From the NCBI GenBank assembly GCA_913062645.1, contig CAJXVW010000001.1, positions 372,001 to 436,000 of the forward strand: a stretch of 64,000 bases of DNA, given 5' to 3'. Made by a program: the position numbers and the translations under genes. Numbering within the stretch: the first letter of the stretch is position 1; every line of letters begins with the position of its first letter. The notes under the pieces are model-generated. The model searched no databases and was not told the DNA's origin. It saw nothing but the letters and a program-made list of their open reading frames with translations. This document shows positions 4,443 through 28,675 of the stretch, in pieces. The stretch comes from an uncultured Mycoplasmatota bacterium. GTDB lineage: Bacteria; Bacillota_I; Bacilli_A; Izemoplasmatales; Izemoplasmataceae.

Positions 4443-5399
4443 ATGAAACTGTTCGGTAAACGCATCACTTATAAACAGGAGAAGGTCATCTTCGGCATTC
4501 TGTTTCTGTCGCCATGGATCATCGGTCTCGTGTTCGTATTCTTCAGCGCCATCCTCGATTCGCTACTGTACAGCCTGTCGACGGTGCATTTCATCAGCGG
4601 CAACGCGACCGATGCCGAGATATCGGCGTTCATCGAATCGCTCGGTGGGTTCGCGTTCAAAAAAAGCGGTGTCATCCTCGAATGGGTCGGACTGGACAAC
4701 TTCCGGTACGCCTTGTTCGAACACGGCACGTTCAATCGCATCCTCGTTGACAGCGTGATTGAAATCGGCCTCAATCTGCCGATCATCATCATCTTCAGTC
4801 TGCTTGTCGCGGTGATGCTCAACACGCGTTTCAAAGGCAATGTGTTTGCCCGCGCGGTGTTCTTCCTGCCGGTCATCATCGCTTCGGACGCGATCACCAC
4901 GGCGCTCAGTCAGGCGACGTTGCTGCAGGATACGATGAACAACGTCGAGGAGAGTGTCTTCGGCAACTTCGAGTTTCAGGCGTTTTTGCTCGAGGCCGGT
5001 TTGTCGCAGAGCATCGTTACCTTCCTGTCCAACACCGTCAATCAAATCTTCAACGTGATCTCCTATTCCGGCGTGCAGATTCTCATCTTCCTCGCCGGCA
5101 TTCAGTCGATTCCGTCACATCTGTACGAGGCGGCCAAGATCGAGGGTGCGAATTCGTATGAATCGTTTTGGAAAATTACCATGCCGATGGTCAGCCCGCA
5201 CATTCTGACGGTGGGCATCTACACGATCATCGACGGCTTTGTCCGCGCGCCGATCACCGAGCTGATCCTCAGCCTCAAGGACAATCTGCTCTATGGATAC
5301 AGCGCTTCGATGGCGTGGATCTACTTTGCCATCGTGATTCTCATCATCGGCATCTTCATCGGTCTGATGAATCGGGTGGTGTTCTACTATGATAACTAA
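4443..5399 (+). CDS. Sugar ABC transporter permease (LplB/MalF type)
   Basis: 318 residues with six predicted membrane segments and the inner-membrane component signature EAAKIEGANSYESFWKITMP (near residues 223-242), which docks the ATPase. A long loop between the first two segments is typical of the CUT1 LplB/MalF branch. The start codon directly follows the upstream stop and is preceded by GAGGAGG. It overlaps the second permease gene by 11 bp, so the two form a heterodimer. No solute-binding protein or ATPase gene lies in the window; the former is probably upstream, the latter possibly a shared MsmK-type subunit. Confidence 0.9.
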   Translation: MKLFGKRITYKQEKVIFGILFLSPWIIGLVFVFFSAILDSLLYSLSTVHFISGNATDAEISAFIESLGGFAFKKSGVILEWVGLDNFRYALFEHGTFNRILVDSVIEIGLNLPIIIIFSLLVAVMLNTRFKGNVFARAVFFLPVIIASDAITTALSQATLLQDTMNNVEESVFGNFEFQAFLLEAGLSQSIVTFLSNTVNQIFNVISYSGVQILIFLAGIQSIPSHLYEAAKIEGANSYESFWKITMPMVSPHILTVGIYTIIDGFVRAPITELILSLKDNLLYGYSASMAWIYFAIVILIIGIFIGLMNRVVFYYDN

Positions 5400-6384
5400 A
5401 ATCCGCACCTATCTTCGCAATGAGGCGCATCGTTTCGAACGTCGCGTCAAGGCGAAAGGGTTCAAGCAGGAAGTCAGTTACCGCGTGACCAAGATTGTGG
5501 TTTCGATTGTTCGCTCGTTCATCGTGTTCGGCCTTTGTTTCGTGATCCTCTATCCGATTTTGCAGATGATTGTCGCCGCCGTCACCAACCCCGACGATCT
5601 TTCCAATCCGCTGGTGGTCTGGATTCCCCGCCAGTTCAGTCTGGAGTTTATTCAGTTTGCGGCTGAAATCCTCGATTACCGGACCGGTCTCATCAACACC
5701 GCGATCATGAGTTTCGGGGTGATGATCCTGACGCTGATCACCAGCAGTCTGGCCGGTTACGCATTCGCCAAACTGAAGTTCAAAGGAATCAATATTCTGT
5801 TTTTCTTCGTACTCTTCACCATCGTCGTACCACCGCAGACGATTGCCATGCCACTGTACATGATCTTCAATCGCCTCGGTCTGACCTCGACCTTGTCGAG
5901 CGTCTTCATCCTGGCGTTCCTCGGCATGGGCATCAAATCCGGTATTTTCATTTTCATCTTCCGACAGGTGTTCCGCAACTTGCCGAAAGAACTGGAGGAA
6001 GCTGCCTTGATTGATGGCTGCGGCGTATTCAAAACGTACTATCTCGTGATGTTGCCGAATGCGTCCAGCGCCTTCATCACGGTCGGGCTGTTCAGTTTTG
6101 TATGGCAGTGGAACGACGTGTTCTATACGCGGCTGTTGATCGCCGTGGAAAATCTCAACATTCTGGCGCTCAATCTCACCAGCGTATCGACGAAGCTGGT
6201 CTACATGCTGCAGAAACTCGGCGTCGATCAGACACTCGCCGAGGGCATCAGCCGCAATCCGCTGTTGGTCGGTACGATCGCCAACACCGGTGCGCTGCTC
6301 ATGATGCTGCCCCTGTTGATCGGCTATCTGTTCGTACAGCGATACTTCGTCGAAAGCGTCGAACGAACCGGGATTGTCGGCTGA
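5389..6384 (+). CDS. Sugar ABC transporter permease (YtcP/MalG type)
   Basis: 331 residues, six membrane segments, and the ATPase-docking loop EEAALIDGCGVFKTYYLVML at about residues 203-222. The N-terminus has an extra charged stretch of about 35 residues before the first membrane helix, a little longer than in MalG. It overlaps the preceding permease by 11 bp and the following gene by one base, showing strict translational coupling. Together with its partner it should import an oligosaccharide in the CUT1 manner. Substrate cannot be read from sequence; neighbouring enzymes suggest N-acetylhexosamine- or mannose-containing glycans. Confidence 0.9.
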   Translation: MITKIRTYLRNEAHRFERRVKAKGFKQEVSYRVTKIVVSIVRSFIVFGLCFVILYPILQMIVAAVTNPDDLSNPLVVWIPRQFSLEFIQFAAEILDYRTGLINTAIMSFGVMILTLITSSLAGYAFAKLKFKGINILFFFVLFTIVVPPQTIAMPLYMIFNRLGLTSTLSSVFILAFLGMGIKSGIFIFIFRQVFRNLPKELEEAALIDGCGVFKTYYLVMLPNASSAFITVGLFSFVWQWNDVFYTRLLIAVENLNILALNLTSVSTKLVYMLQKLGVDQTLAEGISRNPLLVGTIANTGALLMMLPLLIGYLFVQRYFVESVERTGIVG

Positions 6385-7481: not shown

Positions 7482-7497
7482 TCGGAGGTTGTCATCC

Positions 7498-9936
7498 ATG
7501 AAAAAAACATTGATTCTACTCTTGCTCATCATGTTTGGAGGTGCTCTCATGAGCCCGCAACAAGACGTCTCGACGACGCTCTCTTTTGATGTCAATGCAG
7601 CGACGAACTACTTGCGCATCCGACCCGGGAGCGACAAGTCCAACAACGATCTGACGCGCACGCAGCTACTGGCGTTTCTGGATGTCGTCACGGACGAAGT
7701 CAACACGGCCCTGACCGGGTTGTACGACATCGATCGCACGCTGGTTCAGGACCGCTTGGCGACGCTGACGGCACTGTTGGACGGACTGGACGATGCGACG
7801 TTCAACAACGACAAGGAGTTCTATTACTCGTTGTATGAAGGTCTCTTCGAACTCTACTCCTACACATTGGAATCGCGCACCGTGGAAGGACGGGGCATGT
7901 GGCATCGGCCGTTCGAGTCGAATCTGGCCGAAGTACGCGAGACACTCGCCGAACTCCAGGCAATGGGTGTCAACATGCTGTATGTCGAAACGTTCTGGAT
8001 GGGCCGGTTGATCTATGACTCCAACGTACCCGGTACGTTCCAGCATGGGTTCACCCTCGGTGGCTATGCAGACGGGAGTGTCGATTACGGAACCAATTTG
8101 TTGGTTGCGTTCGTGGAAGAAGGGAAGAACTACGGCATTGAAGTCCATGCCTGGGTCGAGAACTTCTTTGTCGGCTACGGAGACAGTTACACGTCAAGCC
8201 CGATTCTCAATCAGAATCCCGACTGGGCGTCCTTCAACTACGATGGCACCATCCCTCAAAAACAAGAGATCAATTATTTGTTCATGGATCCCGCCAATCC
8301 CGAGACACGGGATTATCTGAAGGCCATATATGGCGAGATGGCACTGTTCGACGACGTCGCCAGCATCCATCTCGACTACATTCGCTACCCGGTTGCCGCC
8401 AACGTCACCAGCACCACTTCGAATCGCGATACCGGCTACAGCGTGTATGCCGAACGTGAATTCAAAAGCATCTACGGCTACACCGGCGATCTGCGCACAC
8501 TGGTCGTGACCAATCCGCAGGCGGCCGCCGATTGGCGCGAATACAAGACCCAGGTAATCAGCGATTTCGTCGCCGGCGTCTATTACACCGTCAAGAATCT
8601 CAATCCCGACATCTATCTCTCCACCGCAATCTTCGGCAATCTCAATCATGCGCTCGAAACCAAGATGCAGGACTGGGCGAGCTGGATCGAAGATGGCTAC
8701 GTGGAACTGATCTTGCCGATGGCGTATTACCAATCCTCGATCACGGTTCGCAGCGAGGTCGGCAATCTGACGACGATCGTCGATTCCAACGCGTTCTCGT
8801 ACGCCGGCATCGCGCCGAGTTTCATGGGTTACAACGATCATCTCAATACGACGCAAATCGAAGGCAGTCTCGATGGCAATGCGATGGGAGCGACCTTCTT
8901 CGCATCGCAAAATTATCTCATCGAGACCTTCAACGGTACCATCACATACAATACCAAAGTCCAAAGCATTCTGACCAACGGCACGTTCCGCAACGCGGCG
9001 ATGGTTCCGCACGGGGACACGCAGACGGTCGTCACAACGGTCTTCGACGACATCCTTGACAAGGCCGACCGCTTATACGTGCCCCACGGCAAGATGACGT
9101 CGCAGCAACGAGCGGATCTCGAAGCGGCCCTCCTCCCCTTGCGGAGCATGAGCATGCAAGCGGAACAGGACCTGTACGATCTGATCGCCGCGCTCGAGGC
9201 GATCAACGTCGCAACCCATGCGACCGACGTTGCCGTCAACCGCATCCAGGATGACATCGACTATCTGATCGACATTCTCGTCATCAAAGCGAAACGGCTT
9301 CATTTCGACAATACCATCGACATTAGCGTCAATCCCGATCCCAACACCACCTTCCCCGACCCGATCGAACTGGATGCGCCGACCAATCTCACCAAGGACG
9401 GGGCGACGGTGTCCTGGGATGAGGTGCCGAATGCCGTCGGCTACCTCGTCAATCTCAACGGCACCACCTATATGACGGCAGAGACATTCTTCGATGTACG
9501 AGACGGTTCGGTCATTGGTGGAACCAACATCATCGGCGTCATCGCAATGGGTGACGATGTTGTCTACACCGACAGCGATTACTCCGTGGTGTTGCAGTTC
9601 GAAGCCCTCGAATTGGACGCACCATCGGGCATTCACATCATCGATGACGTGCTCTATTTCGATCCCGTCGAAGGCGCCGTGGAGTATTATCTGAAAGTCG
9701 GCATCAAGACCAGGCGGTTCACGGCGACAGAGTTTGATCTGTCGACGCTGAATCTCACCACCGACATTCACGAAATCGAATTACGCGCCATCGGTGACGG
9801 ATACCAGAGTGTCGACAGCGATTTCTCAGACGAAACGGAATACAAGGCCGGTGACTTGTCCCTGCAAGCGATATTCGGCGATCTGTTCACCAGTTTCGCA
9901 ACATCCAGTCTCAACCAGAATCAGGAGGAAGAATGA
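7498..9936 (+). CDS. Secreted GHL10-type glycosyl hydrolase with C-terminal FN3-like domains
   Basis: 812 residues. The ATG at 7498 lies 9 bases after GGAGG; an upstream TTG in frame is not needed. A signal peptide (MKKTLILLLLIMFGG) is followed by a helical region, then a family-10-like glycosyl hydrolase barrel at about residues 130-430 (RGMWHRPFESNLAEVRETL, GVNMLYVETFW, HAWVENFF, IHLDYIRYP, LILPMAYY are typical GHL10 motifs). A helical linker and two beta-sandwich repeats resembling FN3 domains follow (about 625-800). No wall anchor is seen. GHL10 relatives cleave peptidoglycan or host glycans; the substrate here is not known. Confidence 0.82.
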   Translation: MKKTLILLLLIMFGGALMSPQQDVSTTLSFDVNAATNYLRIRPGSDKSNNDLTRTQLLAFLDVVTDEVNTALTGLYDIDRTLVQDRLATLTALLDGLDDATFNNDKEFYYSLYEGLFELYSYTLESRTVEGRGMWHRPFESNLAEVRETLAELQAMGVNMLYVETFWMGRLIYDSNVPGTFQHGFTLGGYADGSVDYGTNLLVAFVEEGKNYGIEVHAWVENFFVGYGDSYTSSPILNQNPDWASFNYDGTIPQKQEINYLFMDPANPETRDYLKAIYGEMALFDDVASIHLDYIRYPVAANVTSTTSNRDTGYSVYAEREFKSIYGYTGDLRTLVVTNPQAAADWREYKTQVISDFVAGVYYTVKNLNPDIYLSTAIFGNLNHALETKMQDWASWIEDGYVELILPMAYYQSSITVRSEVGNLTTIVDSNAFSYAGIAPSFMGYNDHLNTTQIEGSLDGNAMGATFFASQNYLIETFNGTITYNTKVQSILTNGTFRNAAMVPHGDTQTVVTTVFDDILDKADRLYVPHGKMTSQQRADLEAALLPLRSMSMQAEQDLYDLIAALEAINVATHATDVAVNRIQDDIDYLIDILVIKAKRLHFDNTIDISVNPDPNTTFPDPIELDAPTNLTKDGATVSWDEVPNAVGYLVNLNGTTYMTAETFFDVRDGSVIGGTNIIGVIAMGDDVVYTDSDYSVVLQFEALELDAPSGIHIIDDVLYFDPVEGAVEYYLKVGIKTRRFTATEFDLSTLNLTTDIHEIELRAIGDGYQSVDSDFSDETEYKAGDLSLQAIFGDLFTSFATSSLNQNQEEE

Positions 9937-10625
9937 TGAAGACGAATCTAATCAAGAAGCACAGCCTGATCGTGTCCTGTCAAGCGCTTGCCGATGAACC
10001 GTTGCACGGCAGTGAGATCATGGCCAAGATGGCGCTCGCCGCTTTGCAGGGCGGTGCACAGGGAATCCGCGCCAACTCCGCTGCGGACATCAAAGCGATC
10101 AAAGAAGTCGTCGACTTGCCGGTGATCGGCATCGTCAAGAAAGAATACAACGGCTATCCCGTCTACATTACGCCGACGATGGCCGAAGTCGACGAAGTCG
10201 CGGCAAGCGGTGCGGAAATCATCGCCATAGACGCCACCGACCGCGAACGTCCGGATGACAACTGTCTGGCGTCGTTTGTCGCGGCGATTCGCGACAAATA
10301 TCCAGAACTCCTGATCATGGCCGACATTTCCACGTATGAAGAGGGTGTGGCCGCCGCAAACATGGGAGTCGACATCGTTTCGACGACATTGTGCGGATAC
10401 ACCGAACAGACCAAAGACACCAAAATTCCCAATTTCAAATTGGTGCGTCAACTGGCGAACACGATCGAACAGCCGATCATCTGCGAGGGTGGAATCCAAT
10501 CACCGAAACAATTTCTCAAAGCCCTCAAGAGCGGTGCCTATGCCTGCGTCGTCGGCAGTGCCATCACCCGTCCGCAGCTGATCACCAAGAAGTTCACGGA
10601 CGTGATTCCCGATGCATCGAATTAG
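9933..10625 (+). CDS. nanE: N-acetylmannosamine-6-phosphate 2-epimerase
   Basis: 230 residues, the usual NanE length. It converts ManNAc-6-P to GlcNAc-6-P in sialic acid and N-acetylmannosamine catabolism. Seen motifs: LIVSCQALADEPLHGSEIMA at the N-terminus, GAQGIRANS, IGIVKKEYNGYPVYITPTM with the catalytic lysine, IDATDRERP, and the phosphate-binding CEGGIQSP and VVGSAITRP loops. The start ATG overlaps the upstream stop; an ATG one codon later is equally usable, both behind AGGAGG. The end overlaps the GH84 gene by 14 bp. No NanA lyase or NagA/NagB gene is seen nearby. Confidence 0.93.
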   Translation: MMKTNLIKKHSLIVSCQALADEPLHGSEIMAKMALAALQGGAQGIRANSAADIKAIKEVVDLPVIGIVKKEYNGYPVYITPTMAEVDEVAASGAEIIAIDATDRERPDDNCLASFVAAIRDKYPELLIMADISTYEEGVAAANMGVDIVSTTLCGYTEQTKDTKIPNFKLVRQLANTIEQPIICEGGIQSPKQFLKALKSGAYACVVGSAITRPQLITKKFTDVIPDASN

Positions 10626-12168
10626 AAATCGGTACACGGTTGGGGAACACGTCGATTTCACCGATGTCTGGTATGAGGATGATGTCCTTCGCACCGAACC
10701 CACCTTGGATGTGACGGAAGAACAGGATCCGACACTCGGTGACAACTATCGAATTCGTGTCCGCAAGCCGCATCGTGTCATTCTGACTCATGGTAATGAG
10801 CGATCACGTCACTATGCCGCGGAAACACTTGAACACTTGATTATCCATGACGATCTCGACTATGGTCTGTACGAAGATGGTCCCCGGTTCGACATGCGCG
10901 GCATCATCGAAGGGTTCTACGGTGAACCATGGACGCATGCCGATCGCCTGGATGTCATGTCGTTTCTCGAGCAACATCACATGAACACCTACATGTATGC
11001 GCCCAAGGACGACCCCTATCATCGCCACAAGTGGCGCGAACCGTATCCGGCGGATGCGTTCGCACAATTGCGGGAACTGATTGACGCCGCCCTGGCGCAT
11101 GATGTCGATTTCTACTTCTCGATCAGCCCCGGCAATGACTTCAACTACACCAAAGAGGATGATTTTGTCGCGTTGTTCGAGAAAATCGACGCCGTGCGTT
11201 CATGCGGTGTACGCCATTTCTGTCTCTTGCTGGATGACATCGACTACCAACTCAACGCGGCCGACAAAGCCGCCTTCCAGACACCGGGTCAGGCGCATGC
11301 CTACATCACCAACCGCCTGCACGAACACTTGCGCAAACACGACGAACAGACGGTGCTCGTGATGTGTCCGACCGAGTACCATCAGAATGTCGACACGCCG
11401 TATCGCAACGATCTCAAACAACACATGAACCCCGACGTCCTCGTGTTTTGGACGGGGTACAACACCGTCGCCGAATACATCCCCAATGTCGATGGGGAAC
11501 GTGTCCGGGACTACTTCGGACACGAGCTCGTGCTGTGGGACAATTATCCCGTCAACGACATGGCGACCGACATGTTGTTTCTCGGTCCCTTGACGGGTCG
11601 TGGCGATCAGCTTGATCGCACCCACACGGGCATGGTCAGCAACCCGATGGTTCAGTGGTCGCTTTCCAAAATTCCGATCATCACGATGTCCGACTACATG
11701 TGGGATCCCTCCGGCTACGACCCCGAACAATCGTTTGCCGAAGCGATCCGCGATTTTGCGGGTGAGGAGTCCTTTGTACTGCCGCTCGAACGGGTCGTAT
11801 CGCATTTTCGACATACTATTTTGGAATATTATCAAGATCCGCAGCTGGAGTCCCATGTGCAAGACCGCAACATCGATGGTCTGGTCGCGTACTACGAGCA
11901 ATTGATCGACGACATCCGAACGCTGGATGCGTTCCCCGATCCACGTTTTCGCGAACAGTTTCAGCCGTGGTGGGAACGGATCGTGTTCGATCATGATCTG
12001 CTCAAGGCGATGCAAGCCGATGACACGGCAGGCGTCGCGCGGATGTTGAGTGAAGTACCAGACAAACAACACACCACCGGCGGCAACTATGCCGTCAAAT
12101 ACGCCAAAGCGATCGGTCTTTATGACGGTCCGCTCTATCCTCACCAACGCAAGAATTTCTGGGAGTGA
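10612..12168 (+). CDS. GH84 beta-N-acetylglucosaminidase (O-GlcNAcase/NagH-like), apparently cytosolic
   Basis: 518 residues without a signal peptide. It should remove terminal beta-linked GlcNAc by substrate-assisted catalysis. The GH84 hallmark GIIEGFYGEPWTH is at about residue 92, followed by YMYAPKDDPYHRHKWREPY, and the catalytic aspartate pair is in LLLDDID (residues D208 and D209). A small N-terminal alpha/beta domain precedes the barrel, as in other GH84 enzymes, and a helical C-terminal domain follows. It starts inside nanE, so the two are translationally coupled. Lack of export fits action on imported oligosaccharides rather than on whole mucin, unlike clostridial NagH. Confidence 0.92.
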   Translation: MHRIRNRYTVGEHVDFTDVWYEDDVLRTEPTLDVTEEQDPTLGDNYRIRVRKPHRVILTHGNERSRHYAAETLEHLIIHDDLDYGLYEDGPRFDMRGIIEGFYGEPWTHADRLDVMSFLEQHHMNTYMYAPKDDPYHRHKWREPYPADAFAQLRELIDAALAHDVDFYFSISPGNDFNYTKEDDFVALFEKIDAVRSCGVRHFCLLLDDIDYQLNAADKAAFQTPGQAHAYITNRLHEHLRKHDEQTVLVMCPTEYHQNVDTPYRNDLKQHMNPDVLVFWTGYNTVAEYIPNVDGERVRDYFGHELVLWDNYPVNDMATDMLFLGPLTGRGDQLDRTHTGMVSNPMVQWSLSKIPIITMSDYMWDPSGYDPEQSFAEAIRDFAGEESFVLPLERVVSHFRHTILEYYQDPQLESHVQDRNIDGLVAYYEQLIDDIRTLDAFPDPRFREQFQPWWERIVFDHDLLKAMQADDTAGVARMLSEVPDKQHTTGGNYAVKYAKAIGLYDGPLYPHQRKNFWE

Positions 12169-12173
12169 TCCAC

Positions 12174-13691
12174 ATGCAGAACATCATCGTCATTCCGCTG
12201 GACGAGCGTCCGTGCAACCTCCGCTTTCCAGCTCTTCTCGGTGCGATGACCGACATCAATGTCATCCTTCCGCCCAAAGACATCCTCGGCAACAAGAAGG
12301 AACCAGCCGCGATAGATCGCGTCTGGGCCTTTCTCAAGGAACACATCACCAGCGCAACCGGCGTGGTGCTGTCGATTGACATGTTGCTGTACGGCGGCAT
12401 CGTACCATCGCGATTGCATGACGATGACGTCGAGACCTTGAAACGACGACTGGCCCGGTTGGAAGAACTGAAACAGGATCATCCGTCGGTGACATTTTAC
12501 GCATACCATTTGATCATGCGCAATCCGACGTACTCGTCGAGCGACGAAGAACCCGATTACTACGAGCGTGTCGGCCGGGAGATTCATCTGCGCGGCGTCT
12601 ACGAACACAAGCAGGCGATCGGCATTCTGAGCACCGAGGAAGAGAAGGATTATGCGCGCGTGTTGACAACTCTAGACGATGCATCGTGGAATGACTATAC
12701 CGCGCGCCGCCAGCGCAATCTGGCGCTTGACATCCAGTCGGTCGATTATGTGGCAAGCGGCGTGATCGATTTCCTCATAGTCCCGCAGGACGACGCCTCG
12801 CCCTACGGTCTGACGGCCATCGATCAACAGCAACTGCGCAAGCACATCGCCGAGCAAAACGTGACCAGCAAAGTCCTGATGTATCCCGGCGCCGATGAAG
12901 TGGCGAACACCCTGATCGCCCGGATGGTGAACCATCTCCATCAACGCCAGCTTAAAGTGGCACTCAAATACACCAGCGAACAAGGCAAGTTCGTCATCCC
13001 GCTATACGAGGATCGACCCCTGGGCGAGACCGTCAAATATCAGATCATGGCCGCCGGTGGCATCGTCGTGCAAAGCGACACCGACGCCGATCTGATCCTG
13101 ATTGTCAATGCCCCTTCCGGCAAGATGCTCAATGCGTCAGAAGCGTTCAAGAAAGGGTTGGAATACGATGCCTTCCGCAATCTGGTGGAAGCCGTCGATC
13201 ATGCCGCCTATTGGATTGACAAGAAGAAACCCGTTGCGATCGCCGATGTGGCCTATGGAAATGGCAGCGATCTGGATCTGATCCGGCTCCTTGGCGAACG
13301 CGAGTTGCTGTTTCGCGTAGCCGGTTACGCCGGTTGGAACACATCCAGCAACACGCTTGGAACGGTCATTCCGCACGGCATGTTCTTCGCATCATTTGGC
13401 TCGTCGCAGGCGCACCTTGATTTCCTCTCGCTGCGCTACGTCGAGGATGCGGGATACTGTGCCGTCGTACGGCAGGCGACCTGTCAGCACGTGTTACCGA
13501 CATTGGGCCTGGATTATTTTCATGCCGATGGGGAACGCGGCCAAGTCAGCGCCGCGGTTGCCGAACAACTCGAACAATTCATCTCATCTCATCTTGTGGA
13601 CGCGAACCACGACATCGTCATCCGTGATTGCTGGATGCCATGGCGGCGCATGTTCGAAGTCGGACTGGATACGAAGGTTGTGAAAAAATGA
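12174..13691 (+). CDS. DUF4127 family protein
   Basis: 505 residues, cytosolic. The N-terminus IIVIPLDERPCNLRFP is the family's signature, followed by LPPKDILGNKKEP and SIDMLLYGGIVPSR, which place it in DUF4127 with confidence. No catalytic function is established for the family. The ATG at 12174 is preferred over an in-frame GTG at 12165, because GGGAG lies 8 bases ahead of the ATG. DUF4127 genes recur beside GH84, GNAT and sugar ABC genes in Bacillota, so a role in amino-sugar or polysaccharide breakdown is likely but unproven. It overlaps the next gene by 4 bp. Confidence 0.85.
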   Translation: MQNIIVIPLDERPCNLRFPALLGAMTDINVILPPKDILGNKKEPAAIDRVWAFLKEHITSATGVVLSIDMLLYGGIVPSRLHDDDVETLKRRLARLEELKQDHPSVTFYAYHLIMRNPTYSSSDEEPDYYERVGREIHLRGVYEHKQAIGILSTEEEKDYARVLTTLDDASWNDYTARRQRNLALDIQSVDYVASGVIDFLIVPQDDASPYGLTAIDQQQLRKHIAEQNVTSKVLMYPGADEVANTLIARMVNHLHQRQLKVALKYTSEQGKFVIPLYEDRPLGETVKYQIMAAGGIVVQSDTDADLILIVNAPSGKMLNASEAFKKGLEYDAFRNLVEAVDHAAYWIDKKKPVAIADVAYGNGSDLDLIRLLGERELLFRVAGYAGWNTSSNTLGTVIPHGMFFASFGSSQAHLDFLSLRYVEDAGYCAVVRQATCQHVLPTLGLDYFHADGERGQVSAAVAEQLEQFISSHLVDANHDIVIRDCWMPWRRMFEVGLDTKVVKK

Positions 13692-14641
13692 AGTATCGTA
13701 ATTGGAACGGACACGAATCGTATCAGACGATTCTGCAACAATGGAATGCCGATATGCCGAAGGATTTCCACCTTCGCGAGGACTTGTTCATATCGCAGAT
13801 TCTCAAACAGGAAGACATTCATCGCCCGGCGTCTTATGTCGCCATCGATGAAACCGATCGGGAAGTTGGTTGGATCATCGTCAAACGATGGAATCGCGAT
13901 GGCATCGATGCCTACCGTGGCGTGGCTTGGATTTCCTTTCTCTATGTCGTCCCCTCACACCGGAAACAAGGCATCGGACGCAAACTGGTGACGCTCGCAA
14001 TCGATCAGTTGCGTCTGGATGGCATTCATACCGTTCATGTCGGCAAGGACATGAACAATCTGTTTTGCGGCGTGCCTGAGATATTCGGCACGAAAGGCTT
14101 CTTTGCCGCAATGGATTTCGTGGAACACGATTTCTCGGTCGACATGCACAAACACGTCACGTCCACCGATTTGATACCCTTAAGACAACAGTTGAACTAT
14201 CGGATTCGTCTCGCGACACGGACTGATTTCCCCAAGATTCACGCGTTTTTTGCCAAAAACTTCCCGGGCCGCTGGCAACAGGAGTTCATCGAATACGACC
14301 GTCTCGGTCACGACGGCAGCGCCTTCGTCATTGTTCTTCATGACGACAGGGTCATCGCCTTCTGCCGCATCAACGACAGTCGCTCGGGCTACAACATGTA
14401 CAACACCAACTGGACGGCGACCTTCGATCATTTGATTGGTGTCGGACCACTTGGCGTCGACGATGATTATCGTGGTTATGGTCTCGGGTTCGATGTCACG
14501 GCGGAGGCCATCAACGATGCCGTCAGACGTGATGCCTCCGACATCATCATCGACTGGACGAGTCACATTGAGTTCTATCGCAAATTCGGTTTCGACGTAT
14601 GGCACCGCTATGCGTCGATGACCCGCAAACTATCGAGGTGA
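13688..14641 (+). CDS. Tandem GNAT-domain N-acetyltransferase
   Basis: 317 residues with two GNAT modules. The first (about residues 1-150) carries FLYVVPSHRKQGIGRKLV, the acetyl-CoA pyrophosphate loop. The second (about 180-317) carries VGPLGVDDDYRGYGLGFDV in the same place and ends in EFYRKFGFDVWHRYASM. The ATG at 13688 overlaps the DUF4127 stop; an upstream in-frame start inside that gene has no ribosome site. Double-GNAT proteins of this kind often accompany DUF4127 and beta-hexosaminidase genes and may acetylate an amino sugar. The acceptor substrate is unknown. Confidence 0.85.
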   Translation: MKYRNWNGHESYQTILQQWNADMPKDFHLREDLFISQILKQEDIHRPASYVAIDETDREVGWIIVKRWNRDGIDAYRGVAWISFLYVVPSHRKQGIGRKLVTLAIDQLRLDGIHTVHVGKDMNNLFCGVPEIFGTKGFFAAMDFVEHDFSVDMHKHVTSTDLIPLRQQLNYRIRLATRTDFPKIHAFFAKNFPGRWQQEFIEYDRLGHDGSAFVIVLHDDRVIAFCRINDSRSGYNMYNTNWTATFDHLIGVGPLGVDDDYRGYGLGFDVTAEAINDAVRRDASDIIIDWTSHIEFYRKFGFDVWHRYASMTRKLSR

Positions 14642-15398: not shown

Positions 15399-16955
15399 AT
15401 GAACAAGGCATGGATATTGACGTTGATGCTGTTCCTTGCACTGGGCGTGCATGACATGGCTCTGGATGCGGATTTCACCGTCACGCCGGTGACCATTGAA
15501 ACCACCATGATCGACGGCGTCGAACACACCAAAATCGTCGGTACCGTGGAAAACGAACAAGGTGTGATGTCGGATCAGGTGATTCAGTATCTGCGCGGCA
15601 ATCCGACAATCGACAACAACCTCCACGTGATTGCGGCGGATGCTTATCTGCCATTTTCCTACAGCACCGCAACGGTGCCGAACATCATCGCCGCGACCAA
15701 CAATCGTTACGATCATTACGATGTGATCGGCGGCATCAACGGCGACTACTACAACATGACTGTCGGCATTCCCGTCGAAGCCTACATTCGCAATTACGAA
15801 GTCTTGTCTTCGGGACTGGGGTACGAACGTCCCGTCATCGGATTCAAGGACAGTGGTGAAGTCATTTTCGGACGCCCCTGCTATGAGGGCATGGAACTGC
15901 TCATCTATCGCAGTGACGGCGCATTGCGCAACCGTCTGCCGGTCGAACGGATCAACCGATTGCCGTTTTCCGATCGCGGCACCACGGTCTTCTTCAGCGA
16001 TTACACGCAAACCATCACGACCCCCTTCCCGAAACTGATCATCGATACCAGCGAATACAAGACCGACGGGTATCAGACACGGTACTTCGGTAGCGGCGAT
16101 TACCTTTCCACAACCACCGATGAAATCACCGTTCCCGATGGATCGTTCGTAATCGTCAGCAACGATCCCTACGTCACCGATGTGATCCGAACCAACGACC
16201 GCGTCGTCGTCCAACAGAAGGTCGGTTGCGGATTTGAAGACGTCCGCTTTGCGATTGGAACGTGGGAACACCTTGTCTCCGGTGGCGTCGCGACCAATTC
16301 CCTGACGTACGGGACCGCCCCGGCCAGTGACAATCCACGTACCGCGATTGGTGTCACCACTACCGGTGACGTGATTCTTCTGACGGTTGACGGTCGGCAA
16401 GCGGCAGCCGGCATGGACGGCATGTCCTTGTATGAAGTGGCCGATTTGATGGTGTCGCTTGGGGCGGTGGAAGCTTACGCGATGGATGGCGGCGGAAGCA
16501 CGACGATGGTTGTCAAGGATCCCGATGACGGATCTTACGATATAACCAACAGTCCATCCGACGGATCACCGCGGCGCGTATCGAACGCGATTCTGTTTGT
16601 CAATGGGTCACATCCCGATCCCGTGCAAGAACTGGGTCTGCCCGATTTGAGCGAGCGACTGCCGATTCCCTCGAACCTATTCATCGACAACGAGGGTGTC
16701 CTCCGCTTCAACAAAGTCGACCATGCGGAAGGGTATGAGATTGTCATCAATGATACGACGTATCCCACGCTCAGCCGAGACCTGCCGCTCAATTTCGCGC
16801 CAGGTACCTATGCCATCCAAGTGCGGGCCAAAGGAGATGGGATGTACTATGCCGACAGTCCGTATTCCGGCACCCTGATTTTCACTGTTTTGGACGATCG
16901 GTCCGCCCGCATTGCCGAACTGTTCCGCAACTATGCGAACAGCGAGAACAAATAA
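15399..16955 (+). CDS. Secreted phosphodiester glycosidase (NAGPA/DUF2233) with FN3-like tail
   Basis: 518 residues. A signal peptide (MNKAWILTLMLFLALGV) precedes the phosphodiester glycosidase domain at about residues 60-400. Family motifs are clear: GGINGDYYN, DNPRTAIGV, LLTVDGRQ, AMDGGGSTTMV and RRVSNAILF. The family's known members remove GlcNAc from a sugar phosphodiester (human uncovering enzyme) or act on wall teichoic acid or exopolysaccharide (YoeB-like, EpsL-like). Residues 420-505 look like one FN3 module similar to those in the GHL10 protein at 7498. It closes the long plus-strand operon; a new promoter follows. Confidence 0.87.
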   Translation: MNKAWILTLMLFLALGVHDMALDADFTVTPVTIETTMIDGVEHTKIVGTVENEQGVMSDQVIQYLRGNPTIDNNLHVIAADAYLPFSYSTATVPNIIAATNNRYDHYDVIGGINGDYYNMTVGIPVEAYIRNYEVLSSGLGYERPVIGFKDSGEVIFGRPCYEGMELLIYRSDGALRNRLPVERINRLPFSDRGTTVFFSDYTQTITTPFPKLIIDTSEYKTDGYQTRYFGSGDYLSTTTDEITVPDGSFVIVSNDPYVTDVIRTNDRVVVQQKVGCGFEDVRFAIGTWEHLVSGGVATNSLTYGTAPASDNPRTAIGVTTTGDVILLTVDGRQAAAGMDGMSLYEVADLMVSLGAVEAYAMDGGGSTTMVVKDPDDGSYDITNSPSDGSPRRVSNAILFVNGSHPDPVQELGLPDLSERLPIPSNLFIDNEGVLRFNKVDHAEGYEIVINDTTYPTLSRDLPLNFAPGTYAIQVRAKGDGMYYADSPYSGTLIFTVLDDRSARIAELFRNYANSENK

Positions 16956-17008: not shown

Positions 17009-17842
17009 ATGGTAGCTGGAAATCTGCTGGACGCCATCAGCGTCTACGAGAACGCCTTTACCAAAAGCGAGAAGATTCTCTACGAATACTTGAAAGAAGC
17101 GATCGATGACCTGATTTACATGAGTGTCACCGAACTGGCGGACAAAATCGGCGTCGGCGAATCCACGATTCTGCGGTTTTGTCGCAAGGTCGGCTACAAG
17201 GGGTATCAGGATTTCAAACTCAATGTCGCCCAGTATCTGGGGGCCGGCCAATTGGAACAGCGCACCGACGAAGACAAGTCGCTGATGGAAGTGGTTGAAT
17301 CCAGTCTCATCAACTCGATCAAGAAAAGCACCACGCTGATTACCGAGGAGAAGATCGAGGACACCGTTGAGTTGTTAAATCATGCCAAACGAGTGTTGTT
17401 TTTCGGAGTCGGATCGAGCGGTCTCGCCGCGGTTGAAGCCAAACACCGCTTCATGCGTATCGGTCGCAAGTATGATGCGTTCACCGATTCGCATTTCATG
17501 ATGATGATCGCTTCGACATTGCAGGAGGGAGACGTCATCGTCGCCTTTACGCTGTCCGGAGGGACCAAGGATACCGTCGATGCCTGCCGCGTCGCTCGTG
17601 AAAACGGGGCGAAGGTGGTCGCCATCACCTCGTATTTGAAAAGCCCGATCACCAAGAATGCCGATGTCGTATTGTTGACAAGCGGTAAGGAAGGACCATT
17701 TGAAGGTGGTTCGATGTTCGCCAAAGTGTCGCAACTCTACATCATCGATCTGCTGTTCACCTACACCGCACAGACCGACATCGAGCACGCGAAGCATTAC
17801 CAAAACACCATCGCCAAATCGATTACCGACAAGAGTTATTGA
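17009..17842 (+). CDS. MurR/RpiR-family transcriptional regulator
   Basis: 277 residues. Residues 1-77 are the RpiR helix-turn-helix domain (VTELADKIGVGESTILRFCRKVGYKGYQDFKL). Residues 125-260 are a SIS sugar-phosphate-binding domain (VLFFGVGSSGLAAVEA, IVAFTLSGGTKDTVDA). Regulators of this family sense phosphorylated amino sugars such as MurNAc-6-P or GlcNAc-6-P. Its place between the glycan operon and the ROK kinase suggests it controls one or both; the inverted repeat at 17997-18034 is a possible operator. It has its own promoter. Confidence 0.93.
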   Translation: MVAGNLLDAISVYENAFTKSEKILYEYLKEAIDDLIYMSVTELADKIGVGESTILRFCRKVGYKGYQDFKLNVAQYLGAGQLEQRTDEDKSLMEVVESSLINSIKKSTTLITEEKIEDTVELLNHAKRVLFFGVGSSGLAAVEAKHRFMRIGRKYDAFTDSHFMMMIASTLQEGDVIVAFTLSGGTKDTVDACRVARENGAKVVAITSYLKSPITKNADVVLLTSGKEGPFEGGSMFAKVSQLYIIDLLFTYTAQTDIEHAKHYQNTIAKSITDKSY

Positions 17843-17913: not shown

Positions 17914-17942
17914 TTTACTTTCAGGGCGAAGTTTCGTATAAT
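17914..17942 (+). promoter_or_regulatory. Promoter of the ROK kinase / GH38 operon
   Basis: TTTACT (17914-17919) and a perfect TATAAT (17937-17942) lie 17 bases apart. The predicted transcript starts about 17949 and has a leader of about 100 bases that contains the inverted repeat at 17997-18034. Confidence 0.75.
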
Positions 17943-17996
17943 GAGAGTAGCTAGGTTTCTTCACTCTATTTCCTATTCTTGCGTTGCTTATACGGA

Positions 17997-18034
17997 ATTC
18001 AATATGGCTTTCTTTCGGGAAAGCCATATTGAAT
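17997..18034. promoter_or_regulatory. 16-bp perfect inverted repeat in the leader of the ROK kinase gene
   Basis: Left arm ATTCAATATGGCTTTC (17997-18012) and its exact reverse complement (18019-18034) flank a 6-base loop. There is no T-run after it, so it is not a classic terminator. It ends 2-3 bases before the GGGAGG ribosome site of the kinase gene. It may be an operator for the neighbouring RpiR protein or an mRNA hairpin controlling translation or stability. Confidence 0.8.
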
Positions 18035-18049
18035 GTAGGGAGGTATTTG

Positions 18050-18925
18050 ATGACCATCATCGCTTGTGACATCGGGGCCACCGAGATCAAGGGGGCCCGT
18101 TATGAAGATGCGATCGCCATTCAGACGCAACGTCTTCGAACCGAACCCGAACGAGGAGCGCACCATACCATGAACCAATTGCATAAATTGATCGGACAAC
18201 TATGGACAGAAGAGGTGCGTGCCATTGGAATCGTCTCCGCTGGTGCGATCAATCCTACAAGCGGCATGATCGTCGGCAACACCGGCACGATGACCGATTG
18301 GGTCGGGGTGTCGTTGAAGGCGGACATCGAGACGGCATTTGGTGTCCCGGTCCATGTCGACAACGATGCCAACGGGGCGATGCTGGCAGAATTTGAACCG
18401 TACCGTCAAGCCGGTATCCAACACGCCGTGATGCTGACCTTGGGCACCGGTGTCGGCAGTGCCGTCGTCATCCACGGCGAGCTGTATCGCGGTGCGACCT
18501 ATCAAGTGGAGTTCGGTCACCTGATCTTGCATCCCGGCGGACGTCCATGTACATGTGGGCAATCCGGCTGCGCCGAACAGTATCTATCGGGACGCGCGTT
18601 GACAAATCGAGCCATCGCCGAGGTCGATGGCGCGATCACGCACGGAAGCGAACTGTTTCTCGCGGCGACCCAACAAAACCCGTGTGCTCTTGCCGTATTG
18701 GAGGAGTACTTTGACGATTTGTTCCTCTATCTTCAATCGCTTGATCGCGTGTACGATCCCGAACTGTTTCTGATCGGGGGCGGCGTGACCGACAACAACA
18801 ACCTGTTTGCAACGATGCTGGAAGAGAAACGCCTCGAACACTGTTTCACCAAGCCGATTCACCTGGCCCGACTGCAAAACCGGGCCGGCATTCAGGGCGC
18901 CTATTTGCTGGCCGAAAGAGGATGA
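18050..18925 (+). CDS. ROK-family sugar kinase (amino-sugar or glucose kinase type)
   Basis: 291 residues. The ATG at 18050 lies 8 bases after GGGAGG; the longer in-frame extension would run through the hairpin and is not needed. The phosphate-binding loop IIACDIGATEIKGAR opens the protein, LTLGTGVGSAVV is the adenosine motif, and the ROK zinc motif is GHLILHPGGRPCTCGQSGC. It should phosphorylate a free hexose or N-acetylhexosamine after glycan breakdown, for example ManNAc to ManNAc-6-P, the substrate of NanE. Substrate choice is inferred from context. It is followed 4 bases later by the GH38 fusion gene. Confidence 0.9.
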   Translation: MTIIACDIGATEIKGARYEDAIAIQTQRLRTEPERGAHHTMNQLHKLIGQLWTEEVRAIGIVSAGAINPTSGMIVGNTGTMTDWVGVSLKADIETAFGVPVHVDNDANGAMLAEFEPYRQAGIQHAVMLTLGTGVGSAVVIHGELYRGATYQVEFGHLILHPGGRPCTCGQSGCAEQYLSGRALTNRAIAEVDGAITHGSELFLAATQQNPCALAVLEEYFDDLFLYLQSLDRVYDPELFLIGGGVTDNNNLFATMLEEKRLEHCFTKPIHLARLQNRAGIQGAYLLAERG

Positions 18926-18929
18926 TTCG

Positions 18930-21900
18930 ATGAAACGCATGACCGTCGTCTATCAGACGCATTGGGATCGTGAATGGTATTACAATGTCGATACCTACAT
19001 GATCCGCATGAAACATGTTCTCAAACGCATCATGGAATTACTCGATTGCGACGCGATCGGGTCGTTTGTATTTGACGGCCAGGTACGGGCTCTCGAAGAT
19101 TATCTGGCGATTGCCGAGCCGAAGGAGCGACAAAAGATTCTGTCGTATGTCGAAGATGGCCGTATTGTCATCGGGCCGTGGTACGTTTTGGCGGATGAGT
19201 TTCTGGTCGATGGGGAATCATTGATTCGCAATCTCGAAATCGGGATTCATAAGGCGACATCGTTTGGTGGGTATCAAAAGGTCGGATATTTGCCGGATTC
19301 GTTCGGGCATGTTTCGCAAATGCCGCAGATTCTGAGGGGTTTCCAACTCGAACATGCCATATTGTGGCGAGGTGTGGTGCCCGATGATTTGTTCTTCCAG
19401 TGGCAGGCTCCCAATCAGGACAGCGTGTTCGCCGTCTATTTGAAAGAAGGCTATTATCAACCGATCATCGAGCAAGAACAATACAAGCAACTGTTCGCAT
19501 CGTTTCTTGAGAAAATAACGGCATTCAGCGACGCACCGCATTTGCTCCTGACCAACGGCGGCGATCATCTGATGCCGGCCTTGGCCGATGTTCCAAGTCG
19601 CATCGTCGAACTGTCCGAAACCCACGATCTGTCGATTGACATCGGAACGTACGAGCAATATTTGAACGCAATCGACAAGCGTTCGTACAACCAGACAATC
19701 ACCGGTGAACTGCGCGACAACCGCGGCATCTACGTGCTTCCCAACGTGCTCAGTTCACGGTATGATCTGAAACGCACCAACCGCATCAGTGAAATGCGCT
19801 TGCGTACGCTCGAGGCCCTCGCCGCCAAGAGTCATCTGTTTGACGATTATCCCCAACAACGCCTCCTTGACACGATGTGGGAGACGCTGTTGCTCAATCA
19901 TCCCCACGATTCCATCTGCGGTTGCAGCATCGATGACGTGCACCGTGAAATGGACGTCCGGAGCACCAAGTTGAACCATCAGCTCGATGCCTTGATCAAA
20001 CAGACCTTTGTCGACATGGATGCGTATCGTCTCACCCATAATTATGACACCAACGACACCAGACTGTTCAGTGATGACAGTCGTTTCACCGTAGTCAATC
20101 CGACGCTTCGCAAGGTGCATGGATTGCAGAAGGTGACCGTGTTTCTGGCGGATGGAAATCCGCTCAATGACGGGTTTGTCGTCAGTGACGGTACCATCGA
20201 TTACACGACCGTCATCGTGGCCAAACGGGCGACCCGTCGGTTTGAATCGCCGCTCGACGATGCCCCCCGGTTCCTGCGCGGCCACGAGTATGACATCGTG
20301 TTCCGCGTAAAGAACCTCAATGGTGTGGATGGCAATCCCTATGTCCTCAAGGCAGGACAGCCGATCACCCTGGCAACCGAAGATCAACCGGTGATTGAAA
20401 ATGCAATGATCCGCGTCGCCCTCTGCGGCAATGACTTGACCATAACCGACAAACGAACCGGGCAAGTCTATCCGCACTGCAATGCCTACGTGTCGTCACT
20501 CGATGCGGGTGACGAGTACAATTACTCGCAACCCGCCAACGACACCGTAACCCATGCGGAGTTGGTGTCGGCAACGGCGCATCGAAGCGATACCTATCAG
20601 GAACTTCGTCTTCGTCACCGTCTGTCCGCTCCGACCAGCTTGAACGGCGATCGTTCAGCGGCAATCGAAGAACGCATGGATTCGTACATAGAAACCGTGG
20701 TGTCACTGTACGCCGATCGAGCGGACATTGATGTTGTGGTTGATGTCGACAATCGCAGCAAGGACCACCGCTTGCGGGTACACTTTGATAGCCCCGAGCG
20801 GGTAGTTGCACATTTCAGTGATACCGCATTCGATGTCGTTCGCCGTGATGTTCGCGACGAGGCATACGATGCGCCGAAACAGAAGGAAGTCCCGGTTGTC
20901 GTCGATCCATCGTTGTCGATGATCACCCTGGACAGCGGCATTCGCGTCGATCACGAAGGCATGCACGAGTATCAGGTTCGACATGTCGATGACCATTCGC
21001 GACTGGAAATCACGATGCTGCGCGCTGTTGGTCATCTGTCCCGTGATGATCTGCGAAGCCGCGGTGGGGGAGCGGGTCCGTCGTTTCCGACACCCGACGC
21101 CCAGATGATCGGACAGCATGCGTATCGCTACAAGATTCACGTCGGTGACGTAGATCCATTCGCAAACAATGACACATTCCGTCAACCGTTGCTGATCACC
21201 AAGGGTCATCTCGACAAACGTGGATCCTTGTTGCAAATCGCCAATCCCCATCTCCATGTATCCAGTCTTCGCAAACGTGGGAACGAGTTGGAGCTGCGTG
21301 TCTTCAATCCCGGCGATGATGCACAGACGTTGGCGCTTCAGTCTTCGTATCCGATCGAAACCATGCGCGTTGTCGATTTTCTTGGCGAGCCAATGGATGG
21401 ATCTATCTCAGTCATCGCGCCCCGCACGATCCGTACATTCCGCCTCTTGCTTTCGGCAAAACCCCAGGACAAAACCGATGTGCTGGTTGTCGGTGGCAGC
21501 ATCGGTGGCGTTCAGGCCGCCCTATCGCTGGCACAGGCCGGACGAGACGTGCTCTTGGTGGAAGAAAGCGACTGGCTCGGTGGTCAGCTGACGAGCCAGG
21601 CCGTCCCGCTTGACGAACACCCGTTCATCGAATCTTTCGGCTGCACCAAACGATATCGCGCCTTCCGCGACAAGGCGCGGGATCACTATCGTAACACCCA
21701 TGAGATCAAGGCCGAATATCGTGATTCGCAGACATTCAATCCCGGCAACGCCTGGGTCACCAATCTGGCCTTCGAACCCAAGGTGGCCAAGCTGCTGTTT
21801 GATGACATGGTAGCTCCTTACGAGGGCAACAATCTTGAAATTCGATACCGTCAGAAGGCGATTCGAGCCCGAACAGGGGAGGACAACATCGAAACCGTCA

Positions 21901-23009
21901 CCCTGCAAGATACCGATAGTCTTGCGGAAACCATCATCACGGCCAAGTATTTCATTGACGGCACCGATCTCGGTGATCTGCTTCCGCTTACCGGCACCGA
22001 GTTTGTCACCGGTGCGGAAAGCAAGGACGAGACCAACGAGTTCCATGCCGCAGCCATAGCCGATCCGACCGACTTGCAACCGGTCACGCATGTTGTGGCC
22101 ATGCGTTGGGACGACCAGGCAACGACGACAATCGACAAACCGGCACAATATGAGTATTTTCGACACTACAAGACACCATACTCGGATCAAATGGTGCTGA
22201 GCGAATACGGCCCCGATTCATCCACCAAGCGCGAACGAAAGTTCAACACCTACGACGGTCGCATGGCACTGTGGCGATATCGACGGTATTTCGATCCGAC
22301 GTTGTACAACCATTGCGACAAGCCTGAGAGAACGACCATCAACTGGCCGCAGAACGACTACTTCATGGGCAACATTTTCGATGATGAATGGGACGATCGG
22401 CATCGTCACATGGCGAAAGAACTGACGCGCTCCTTCGTGTATTATCTGCAGACGGAAGTGCCTCGCCACGACGGTGGCCATGGCTATCCGGAGATGCAGA
22501 TCGCGACGAATGAACTCGGCACCACCGATGGCTTCGCGATGATGCCTTACATTCGGGAATCGCGTCGCATCCGCGCTCTGAAAACCGTTGTGGAAGAGGA
22601 TGTCAGCGCACGGGCCAATGCCACCTTGCCGCACGTCGATTACAGTGTGGGTGTTGGCTCCTATCACATCGATCTGCACATCACAACCAAATCGCATCGG
22701 TTCTTTTTCGACAACACCTGGCCGTTTGAGATTCCCCTTGGCGCATTGATTCCGATTCGCGTCAAGAATCTTCTGCCGGCCTGCAAGAACATCGGGACCA
22801 CCCATCTCACCAATGGCTGCTTCCGTCTTCATCCGGTCGAATGGAACGTCGGCGAGGTAGCGGGCTACTTGGTCGATTTCCTGTTGCGTCAGAAGCTGAC
22901 ACCGCAACAACTCTATCAAGACAAGTCCCAGATCAAACGGTTTCAGGAGGAACTTCGCAACAACGGCGTTGAACTGTCCTGGCCCGAAGATAAGGTTAAG
23001 GTGATTTGA
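18930..23009 (+). CDS. GH38 alpha-mannosidase fused to an FAD-dependent oxidoreductase
   Basis: 1359 residues in one uninterrupted frame, starting at the ATG behind AAAGAGG. Residues 1-845 are a complete bacterial GH38 alpha-mannosidase: zinc ligands in QTHWDREW (H11, D13), nucleophile and zinc ligand D123 in YLPDSFGH, and the third zinc ligand in LLLNHPHDSICGCS. Residues 849-1359 are an FAD oxidoreductase of the PF12831 type, starting with the dinucleotide fold DVLVVGGSIGGVQAA and ending VEE(S), followed by DWLGGQLTSQAVPLDEHP. The GH38 C-terminal beta domain ends at TIRTFRLLL directly before it. The usual GH38 stands alone at about 850 residues, so this is a rare bifunctional protein. No signal peptide: cytosolic. 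The FAD part may oxidise a released or bound sugar (inference). Confidence 0.9.
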   Translation: MKRMTVVYQTHWDREWYYNVDTYMIRMKHVLKRIMELLDCDAIGSFVFDGQVRALEDYLAIAEPKERQKILSYVEDGRIVIGPWYVLADEFLVDGESLIRNLEIGIHKATSFGGYQKVGYLPDSFGHVSQMPQILRGFQLEHAILWRGVVPDDLFFQWQAPNQDSVFAVYLKEGYYQPIIEQEQYKQLFASFLEKITAFSDAPHLLLTNGGDHLMPALADVPSRIVELSETHDLSIDIGTYEQYLNAIDKRSYNQTITGELRDNRGIYVLPNVLSSRYDLKRTNRISEMRLRTLEALAAKSHLFDDYPQQRLLDTMWETLLLNHPHDSICGCSIDDVHREMDVRSTKLNHQLDALIKQTFVDMDAYRLTHNYDTNDTRLFSDDSRFTVVNPTLRKVHGLQKVTVFLADGNPLNDGFVVSDGTIDYTTVIVAKRATRRFESPLDDAPRFLRGHEYDIVFRVKNLNGVDGNPYVLKAGQPITLATEDQPVIENAMIRVALCGNDLTITDKRTGQVYPHCNAYVSSLDAGDEYNYSQPANDTVTHAELVSATAHRSDTYQELRLRHRLSAPTSLNGDRSAAIEERMDSYIETVVSLYADRADIDVVVDVDNRSKDHRLRVHFDSPERVVAHFSDTAFDVVRRDVRDEAYDAPKQKEVPVVVDPSLSMITLDSGIRVDHEGMHEYQVRHVDDHSRLEITMLRAVGHLSRDDLRSRGGGAGPSFPTPDAQMIGQHAYRYKIHVGDVDPFANNDTFRQPLLITKGHLDKRGSLLQIANPHLHVSSLRKRGNELELRVFNPGDDAQTLALQSSYPIETMRVVDFLGEPMDGSISVIAPRTIRTFRLLLSAKPQDKTDVLVVGGSIGGVQAALSLAQAGRDVLLVEESDWLGGQLTSQAVPLDEHPFIESFGCTKRYRAFRDKARDHYRNTHEIKAEYRDSQTFNPGNAWVTNLAFEPKVAKLLFDDMVAPYEGNNLEIRYRQKAIRARTGEDNIETVTLQDTDSLAETIITAKYFIDGTDLGDLLPLTGTEFVTGAESKDETNEFHAAAIADPTDLQPVTHVVAMRWDDQATTTIDKPAQYEYFRHYKTPYSDQMVLSEYGPDSSTKRERKFNTYDGRMALWRYRRYFDPTLYNHCDKPERTTINWPQNDYFMGNIFDDEWDDRHRHMAKELTRSFVYYLQTEVPRHDGGHGYPEMQIATNELGTTDGFAMMPYIRESRRIRALKTVVEEDVSARANATLPHVDYSVGVGSYHIDLHITTKSHRFFFDNTWPFEIPLGALIPIRVKNLLPACKNIGTTHLTNGCFRLHPVEWNVGEVAGYLVDFLLRQKLTPQQLYQDKSQIKRFQEELRNNGVELSWPEDKVKVI

Positions 23010-23716
23010 TGAAACGATACACGGAACGGACCATGGACAACCTCGTCATGCGTGGCTACGAACAATACGTTGACGACGCGATGGTGGTGGTGATGTTTCA
23101 CGGATTCACCGGTCACAAGACCGAATCGAGCGGTCTTTTCCGCAAACTGGCCGACGCGTTGGAACAATCCGGCATCTCCAGCCTACGCTATGACTGGTTC
23201 GGTCATGGTGAAAGCGACCTCACATTCGACCAGATCCGTGTTCCGCTACTGGTTCGTCAGGCCAACGAGATACTGGATGAGGCATTCCGCCGGTATCGGC
23301 GCGTCTGTTTGCTGGGCTTCAGCATGGGCGGTGCCATCGCCATGCATGTCGCCAACAACGACATTGATCGGTTGATTCTGATGGCACCGGCGCAAAACAT
23401 GAAACACATCGCCACCGATTTTTTCACCGGTGACGACCAACAAACCCATGACGTGCACGGGTTCGTGCTGCACCGCGAGTTTGCCGAAGGGTTCATCGAT
23501 CTCGATCTCCAGACGCCGATGCAAGACTATCAGCGACCAGTCCTGCTCCTCCAGGGCGAACAAGACATGGCTGTCAGCAAAACCCAAACGGAAGCACTGC
23601 ACGCCGCTTTGCATGACAGCGAGCTGATGGTGCTCGAAGGGGCCGATCACTGTTTCTCCAGTCACGCGTATCACATGGCGCTTGCCGCTCGTATCATCGC
23701 ATTTCTGAATCGCTGA
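23009..23716 (+). CDS. Alpha/beta hydrolase, esterase-like
   Basis: 235 residues, the size of cinnamoyl/feruloyl or acyl esterases. HGFTGHKTES is the oxyanion loop, LGFSMGGAIA holds the nucleophilic serine, GEQDMAV the acid and GADHCFSS the histidine. The ATG at 23009 shares its first base with the stop codon of the GH38 fusion, and AAGGTG lies upstream. It closes this operon and a terminator follows at once. It could remove acetyl or aromatic esters from sugars, which fits the glycan locus. Confidence 0.85.
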   Translation: MKRYTERTMDNLVMRGYEQYVDDAMVVVMFHGFTGHKTESSGLFRKLADALEQSGISSLRYDWFGHGESDLTFDQIRVPLLVRQANEILDEAFRRYRRVCLLGFSMGGAIAMHVANNDIDRLILMAPAQNMKHIATDFFTGDDQQTHDVHGFVLHREFAEGFIDLDLQTPMQDYQRPVLLLQGEQDMAVSKTQTEALHAALHDSELMVLEGADHCFSSHAYHMALAARIIAFLNR

Positions 23717-23721: not shown

Positions 23722-23744
23722 AGACGACCGCGAGGTCGTCTTTT
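23722..23744 (+). terminator. Rho-independent terminator after the glycan operon
   Basis: An 8-bp stem AGACGACC / GGTCGTCT with loop GCGA is followed by a short T-run. Confidence 0.85.
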
Positions 23745-23879: not shown

Positions 23880-23911
23880 GTACCTATCGTAAATATAGCG
23901 AGGTGAATCAC

Positions 23912-26152: not shown

Positions 26153-26161
26153 GTGGACATC

Positions 26162-28591: not shown

Positions 28592-28620
28592 AAAAGCACA
28601 TCAATTTGTGCTTTTTTTTT
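28591..28620 (+). terminator. Rho-independent terminator after the ABC pair
   Basis: AAAAAGCACA and TGTGCTTTTT form the stem around a 6-base loop, with a run of nine or more T. Confidence 0.9.
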
Positions 28621-28647
28621 GATGTCGTGTCCGGGCCTTGTTCGGTG

Positions 28648-28656: not shown

Positions 28657-28675
28657 GGAATCAGGAGGTGAGAAC

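Follow-up and report, generated by a model that had tools for sequence, protein, structure and literature searches.

In a 64,000-nucleotide stretch of the genome of an uncultured, wall-less Mycoplasmatota bacterium related to Izemoplasma (contig CAJXVW010000001.1, positions 372,001 to 436,000; hereafter the window), a single gene encodes a glycoside hydrolase family 38 (GH38) alpha-mannosidase that continues in frame into an oxidoreductase of the flavin adenine dinucleotide (FAD)-dependent family PF12831, FAD_oxidored. Both domain families are known, whereas their joint architecture, here in one lineage, is new, and our literature search retrieved no report of a GH38-FAD fusion. We propose, with a probability of about 0.5, that the protein would act as a cytoplasmic bifunctional enzyme for saccharide degradation, in which hydrolysis by the GH38 half and flavin-dependent oxidation of the same imported saccharide are coupled by the fusion.

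The original prediction, made from the letters of the window, had described a long uninterrupted frame, a complete GH38 enzyme with H11, D13 and D123 and a complete FAD oxidoreductase from about residue 849, and all three elements were borne out. The frame opens with ATG 18930, closes with the stop at 23007-23009 and encodes 1359 residues without interruption. It is directly preceded by a ribosome-binding-like stretch (AGAGG) and is single-copy in a genome of 1.99 Mb (99.7% complete, 2 contigs). All three GH38 domains are arranged as in the family and exceed the curated cut-offs; the FAD_oxidored match spans profile positions 1-416 of 416 with 315.7 bits against a gathering threshold of 27. 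The final GH38 strand stops near residue 842, and the FAD half opens with its Rossmann strand near residue 848.

Both halves are apparently intact enzymes, as judged from their conserved residues. Across the GH38 alignment, H11, D13, D123, D212 and H326 do not vary, and the active-site residues were aligned to the family 38 structure 3lvt. Two of them, D212 as the acid/base and H326 as the fourth zinc ligand, extend the set of active-site residues named in the original prediction. H11, D13, D123 and H326 match the zinc ligands His13, Asp15, Asp125 and His351 of SpGH38, and D212 matches its acid/base D232 (PMC2815779). The sole departure from the conserved GH38 positions, P to A at residue 296, lies outside the active site, and a decayed GH38 half was ruled out. 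In the FAD half, 56 alignment columns are invariant across 36 unfused sequences from seven phyla, among them H1250, R1299, H1301, E1304 and W1305. All 56 are kept in the window protein and in a second fused protein described below, which rules out the FAD half as a decayed passenger. Its dinucleotide-binding region is conserved, and the half probably binds flavin.

The second fused protein is encoded on contig L021 of Candidatus Izimaplasma (the G021 contig of the window's family), on which GH38 likewise continues in frame into FAD. It is 55% identical to the window protein, although the contig begins inside GH38 and covers this half in part. A related alpha/beta hydrolase follows the fusion there as well (38% identity to that of the window). 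The FAD halves of the two fused proteins are sisters in two trees (Shimodaira-Hasegawa-like approximate likelihood ratio test, SH-aLRT, 99 and 100), so that one fusion event is enough. We propose a single origin of the fusion, in the lineage that the window shares with Ca. Izimaplasma, out of an operon where both genes already lay side by side. Searches with strict E-value limits in overlapping samples, namely 90 genomes of the order, 395 of the class and 392 of the phylum, yielded no further fused gene. Because the Ca. Izimaplasma contig was assembled independently, the fusion is real. The original prediction had named relatives with two separate genes, together with an assembly error, as what would speak against it; such relatives are frequent, but an artefact that joined two genes is ruled out by the independent fused relative with the same kind of next gene, and 4.1 kb of coding sequence with a clean frame, in a genome that is nearly complete, also make it exceedingly improbable.

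In relatives, the two genes occur as neighbours. In G146 (L119), FAD begins about 30 bp after GH38 and has its own ribosome-binding-like stretch. The order is FAD-GH38 in L030 and L120, and GH38-DUF4127-(ROK)-FAD in Halobacillus, Thalassobacillus, Rossellomorea, Cytobacillus and Microbulbifer. In Salipaludibacillus, the reading frame of a divergent PF12831 protein (L031:7833-9314 and L032:7833-9314; 25% identity over part of its length) runs 4 bp into the beginning of the GH38 gene, and it apparently replaces the usual FAD gene. In the GH38 tree, all 13 FAD-linked members fall on one side of one branch, with a single label change, and none of 500 shuffles gave as few. NanE, DUF4127 and ROK accompany 13 of 14 FAD-linked GH38 loci but none of 38 other GH38 loci, with a Fisher p of 2e-11 that overstates independence, owing to relatedness among the genomes and to the use of the fusion as the query that retrieved the loci. 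A likely functional link between GH38 and FAD is supported by this gene neighbourhood, which is conserved across phyla. The fusion and the shared sugar-import operon of the relatives suggest that the two halves act together.

The FAD family also occurs without GH38. The commonest enzyme-like neighbour of the family is DUF4127 (22 of 34 FAD loci examined). Its invariant residues include D13, R15, R119, E128, Q208, D209, D210, W391 and N392, and a literature search returned nothing on it. Of 13 annotated plasmid loci, 10 (L146-L153, L157, L159) have FAD next to a sugar importer and list no other enzyme. These 13 loci come from four other phyla and Bacillota, and as the PLSDB gene tables are incomplete, the count refers to the enzymes listed in the operon. 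The FAD gene stands with a sugar ATP-binding cassette (ABC) transporter and, for the most part, a LacI regulator in Streptomyces (two loci), Rhizobium, Sinorhizobium, Agrobacterium, Thalassospira, Deinococcus (two) and Allomeiothermus; in Parabacteroides its neighbours are SusC and SusD. No glycosidase is listed in any of them. On a Mesobacillus plasmid it is found with NanE, ROK, an alpha/beta hydrolase and two Gfo/Idh/MocA oxidoreductases. From such loci we infer an imported sugar or similar ring polyol as the direct substrate of the flavoenzyme. A protein of about 325 residues without a Pfam match also adjoins the FAD gene in several relatives of the class (L128:10332-11318, L124:1087-2058), and in L128 it lies between FAD and NanE.

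The genes around the fusion in the window are compiled in the table below. Its context of NanE, ROK, GH84, NAGPA-type enzyme and DUF4127, which goes beyond the original prediction, indicates amino-sugar metabolism. With the RpiR-SIS regulator and the ABC importer, these genes point to a cluster for the intracellular breakdown of an imported saccharide of amino sugars and mannose. ROK, fusion and alpha/beta hydrolase likely form one unit. The matches of the ROK protein to the NCBIfam glucokinase and NanK subfamilies are below their cut-offs. NagB is present in the genome, in which nothing exceeded the cut-off for NagA, the enzyme of GlcNAc-6-P deacetylation, with TIGR00221. The N-acetylneuraminic acid lyase NanA was not found in the genome, where the sole PF00701 member is DapA; the known route from sialic acid would therefore not supply the N-acetylmannosamine (ManNAc), and a sialic acid pathway was ruled out.

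Table. Features of the window in and around the GH38-FAD fusion gene
Feature	Position	Strand	Evidence or remark
Two ABC transporter permeases (binding-protein-dependent)	4443..6384	+	PF00528
GHL10 glycosyl hydrolase-like protein	7489..9936	+	PF02638
NanE, ManNAc-6-phosphate 2-epimerase	9933..10625	+	PF04131 3e-67; NF002231 above cut-off
GH84 beta-N-acetylglucosaminidase	10612..12168	+	PF07555 3e-107
DUF4127	12165..13691	+	PF13552 3e-159
Tandem GNAT protein (two acetyltransferase stretches)	13628-14641		within the amino-sugar operon
NAGPA-type phosphodiester glycosidase	15399..16955	+	PF09992 9e-33
RpiR-family HTH + SIS regulator	17009..17842	+	
Promoter-like site (10 of 12), 5' of ROK	17914..17942	+	consensus match only
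ROK sugar kinase, which opens the immediate transcription unit	17984..18925	+	PF00480; likely real start 18050
GH38::FAD_oxidored fusion protein	18930..23009	+	1359 aa; Pfam domains and fused relative L021
GH38 N-terminal catalytic domain (residues 4-250)	18939..19679	+	PF01074, 1.5e-27 for whole protein; H11/D13/D123 zinc/nucleophile, D212 acid/base
GH38 middle domain, Alpha-mann_mid (residues 273-359)	19746..20006	+	PF09261, 5.7e-14; fourth zinc ligand H326 (NHPHDSICG)
GH38 C-terminal beta domain (residues 489-700)	20394..21029	+	PF07748, 6.6e-6
GH38/FAD junction	21456..21473	+	about 5-6 residues, long linker absent
FAD_oxidored domain (residues 850-1342)	21477..22955	+	PF12831, 8.3e-94; full profile
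Alpha/beta hydrolase	23006..23716	+	4-nt overlap with fusion end
Terminator-like hairpin (8 pairs, T-rich tail), end of the ROK-fusion-hydrolase unit	23722..23741	+	consensus match only; number of such sites not above shuffles

The FAD loci of G138 and G129 also contain relatives of the tandem GNAT protein. Downstream of the unit, two consecutive long proteins (window positions 23903-28591) each carry, in a single polypeptide, an ABC ATPase together with an FtsX permease domain, and an AAA_15 protein with an OLD-like TOPRIM domain, of the OLD-family nuclease type, lies at 28619-29845.

Given this setting, the ABC importer would bring in an oligosaccharide that contains an amino sugar and an alpha-manno residue. 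GH38 enzymes are zinc-dependent retaining hydrolases, and the GH38 half is predicted to cut the alpha-manno linkage with D123 as the nucleophile and D212 as the acid/base, both of which are in place. The FAD half, to judge from the sugar-import operons of its family, could oxidize a hydroxyl on the ring, either of that saccharide or of the released piece. The ROK kinase and NanE would then pass the product into amino-sugar-phosphate metabolism under RpiR-SIS control. The fusion would fix the stoichiometry of the two activities and may allow channelling. We infer the substrate, the redox chemistry and the coupling of the halves. Of the two joint actions that the original prediction had considered, hydrolysis plus sugar oxidation and redox-assisted glycoside cleavage, the former is best supported because the FAD half stands in sugar-import operons even without GH38.

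Several observations weigh against our proposal. Against solved structures, the FAD profile finds nothing beyond the generic nucleotide-binding motif. We found no characterized close member of the family, and activity, substrate and flavin content are known for no member found; in the literature, PF12831 is named by a single paper, within a flavoproteome list. The branch that carries the FAD-linked GH38 enzymes has a support of only 63, and many of the compared genomes are related. GH38 is absent from many FAD loci, as in many Bacilli where the FAD gene adjoins DUF4127 and NanE instead, and is therefore not an obligatory partner. Two Rhodococcus loci (L160:8004-10492; L154:8007-9629) place FAD with an IclR regulator and a major facilitator superfamily transporter, and the R. 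opacus locus also contains shikimate dehydrogenase. The substrates may therefore not always be saccharides, and these neighbours suggest a cyclitol or quinate-type substrate for the Rhodococcus orthologue.

A first alternative is that two enzymes of one pathway were joined neutrally or for co-expression and work on different intermediates, with uncoupled active sites and no channelling. The GH38 and FAD genes occur in either order in relatives, some with DUF4127 or ROK between them, and contact is therefore not needed there. That in many loci the FAD family works without GH38, and that the fusion is known from one lineage and two sequences, would fit this as well. On the other hand, the junction has been kept at 55% identity with both halves intact, as far as L021 covers its GH38 half, and the fusion is therefore at least tolerated over long times. 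We regard an uncoupled fusion as somewhat unlikely.

Alternatively, the FAD half could cleave or epimerize glycosides without net redox change. The ring would be oxidized, for example at C3, the bond eliminated or C2 inverted, and the hydride returned, as with nicotinamide adenine dinucleotide (NAD) in GH4 and GH109, while GH38 debranches the substrate. Operons with a sugar ABC or SusCD importer and FAD as the only listed enzyme would be easier to understand if the product were an ordinary sugar, but downstream enzymes may lie elsewhere in these genomes. The clusters also contain 2-epimerases (NanE or N-acetylglucosamine 2-epimerase), besides the two Gfo/Idh/MocA oxidoreductases of Mesobacillus. 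Oxidation at C3 by a flavoenzyme followed by beta-elimination is known elsewhere, although the flavin C3 oxidase pairs there with separate eliminases (PMC10628242). Within the FAD family the chemistry is without known precedent, and the Pfam matches of the fusion protein include no GH4 or GH109 domain. This reading is distinctly unlikely. Its extension, by which PF12831 would be a self-sufficient flavin-dependent glycoside-processing enzyme (by oxidation-elimination-reduction or C2 epimerization) that serves alone the sugar-import operons of several phyla, so that the fusion would combine a classical hydrolase and a flavin-based one in a single chain, seems a shade more doubtful still. If true, a redox-neutral flavin glycosidase or epimerase would be more novel than an oxidase.

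A further possibility is that the FAD half oxidizes or dehydrogenates a non-sugar part freed by GH38, such as an aglycone, an acid or a cyclitol. Mannosylglycerate hydrolase is the closest NCBIfam family of the GH38 half, and the shikimate dehydrogenase beside the Rhodococcus relative would agree with such a substrate. However, the score of 399 is far below the MngB cut-off, and FAD orthologues mostly adjoin sugar importers with no glycosidase; we consider it improbable.

Whichever chemistry applies, the fusion provides direct evidence for a pathway shared by a glycosidase and a widespread family of flavoenzymes. In combination with the importer operons of several phyla, it offers a specific test protein for the action of "FAD-dependent oxidoreductases" on sugars, and it ties DUF4127 to the same amino-sugar pathway.

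Among known systems, the locus shares NanE, a ROK kinase and an RpiR-type regulator with sialic acid nan clusters but differs from them by the missing NanA. To our knowledge, GH38, FAD and DUF4127 are not part of nan clusters. The best NCBIfam match of the GH38 half is the mannosylglycerate hydrolase MngB (NF007331, 3e-119, residues 3-736); an identity with MngB was ruled out by 399.1 bits against an equivalog cut-off of 1138. The mngAB system uses a phosphotransferase system, whereas the window locus has an ABC importer. Bacterial GH38 alpha-mannosidases (SpGH38, PDB 2wyh/2wyi; 3lvt) have the same domain order and a complete zinc active site, but they are stand-alone chains of about 900 residues, while the window protein carries a flavoenzyme and belongs to a group with FAD, NanE and DUF4127 neighbours. 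The GlycDH/AtOGE systems, in which C3 oxidation of glycosides by a flavoenzyme is followed by beta-elimination (PMC10628242), provide a parallel in chemistry, since a flavin oxidoreductase acts there on intact glycosides, as the FAD half might. The partner enzymes in these systems are eliminases, while here the partner is GH38 and the chemistry of the FAD half is putative. Finally, the fusion protein matches PF12831 over the full length of the profile and retains all invariant residues of the family, from which it differs in being joined to a glycosidase.

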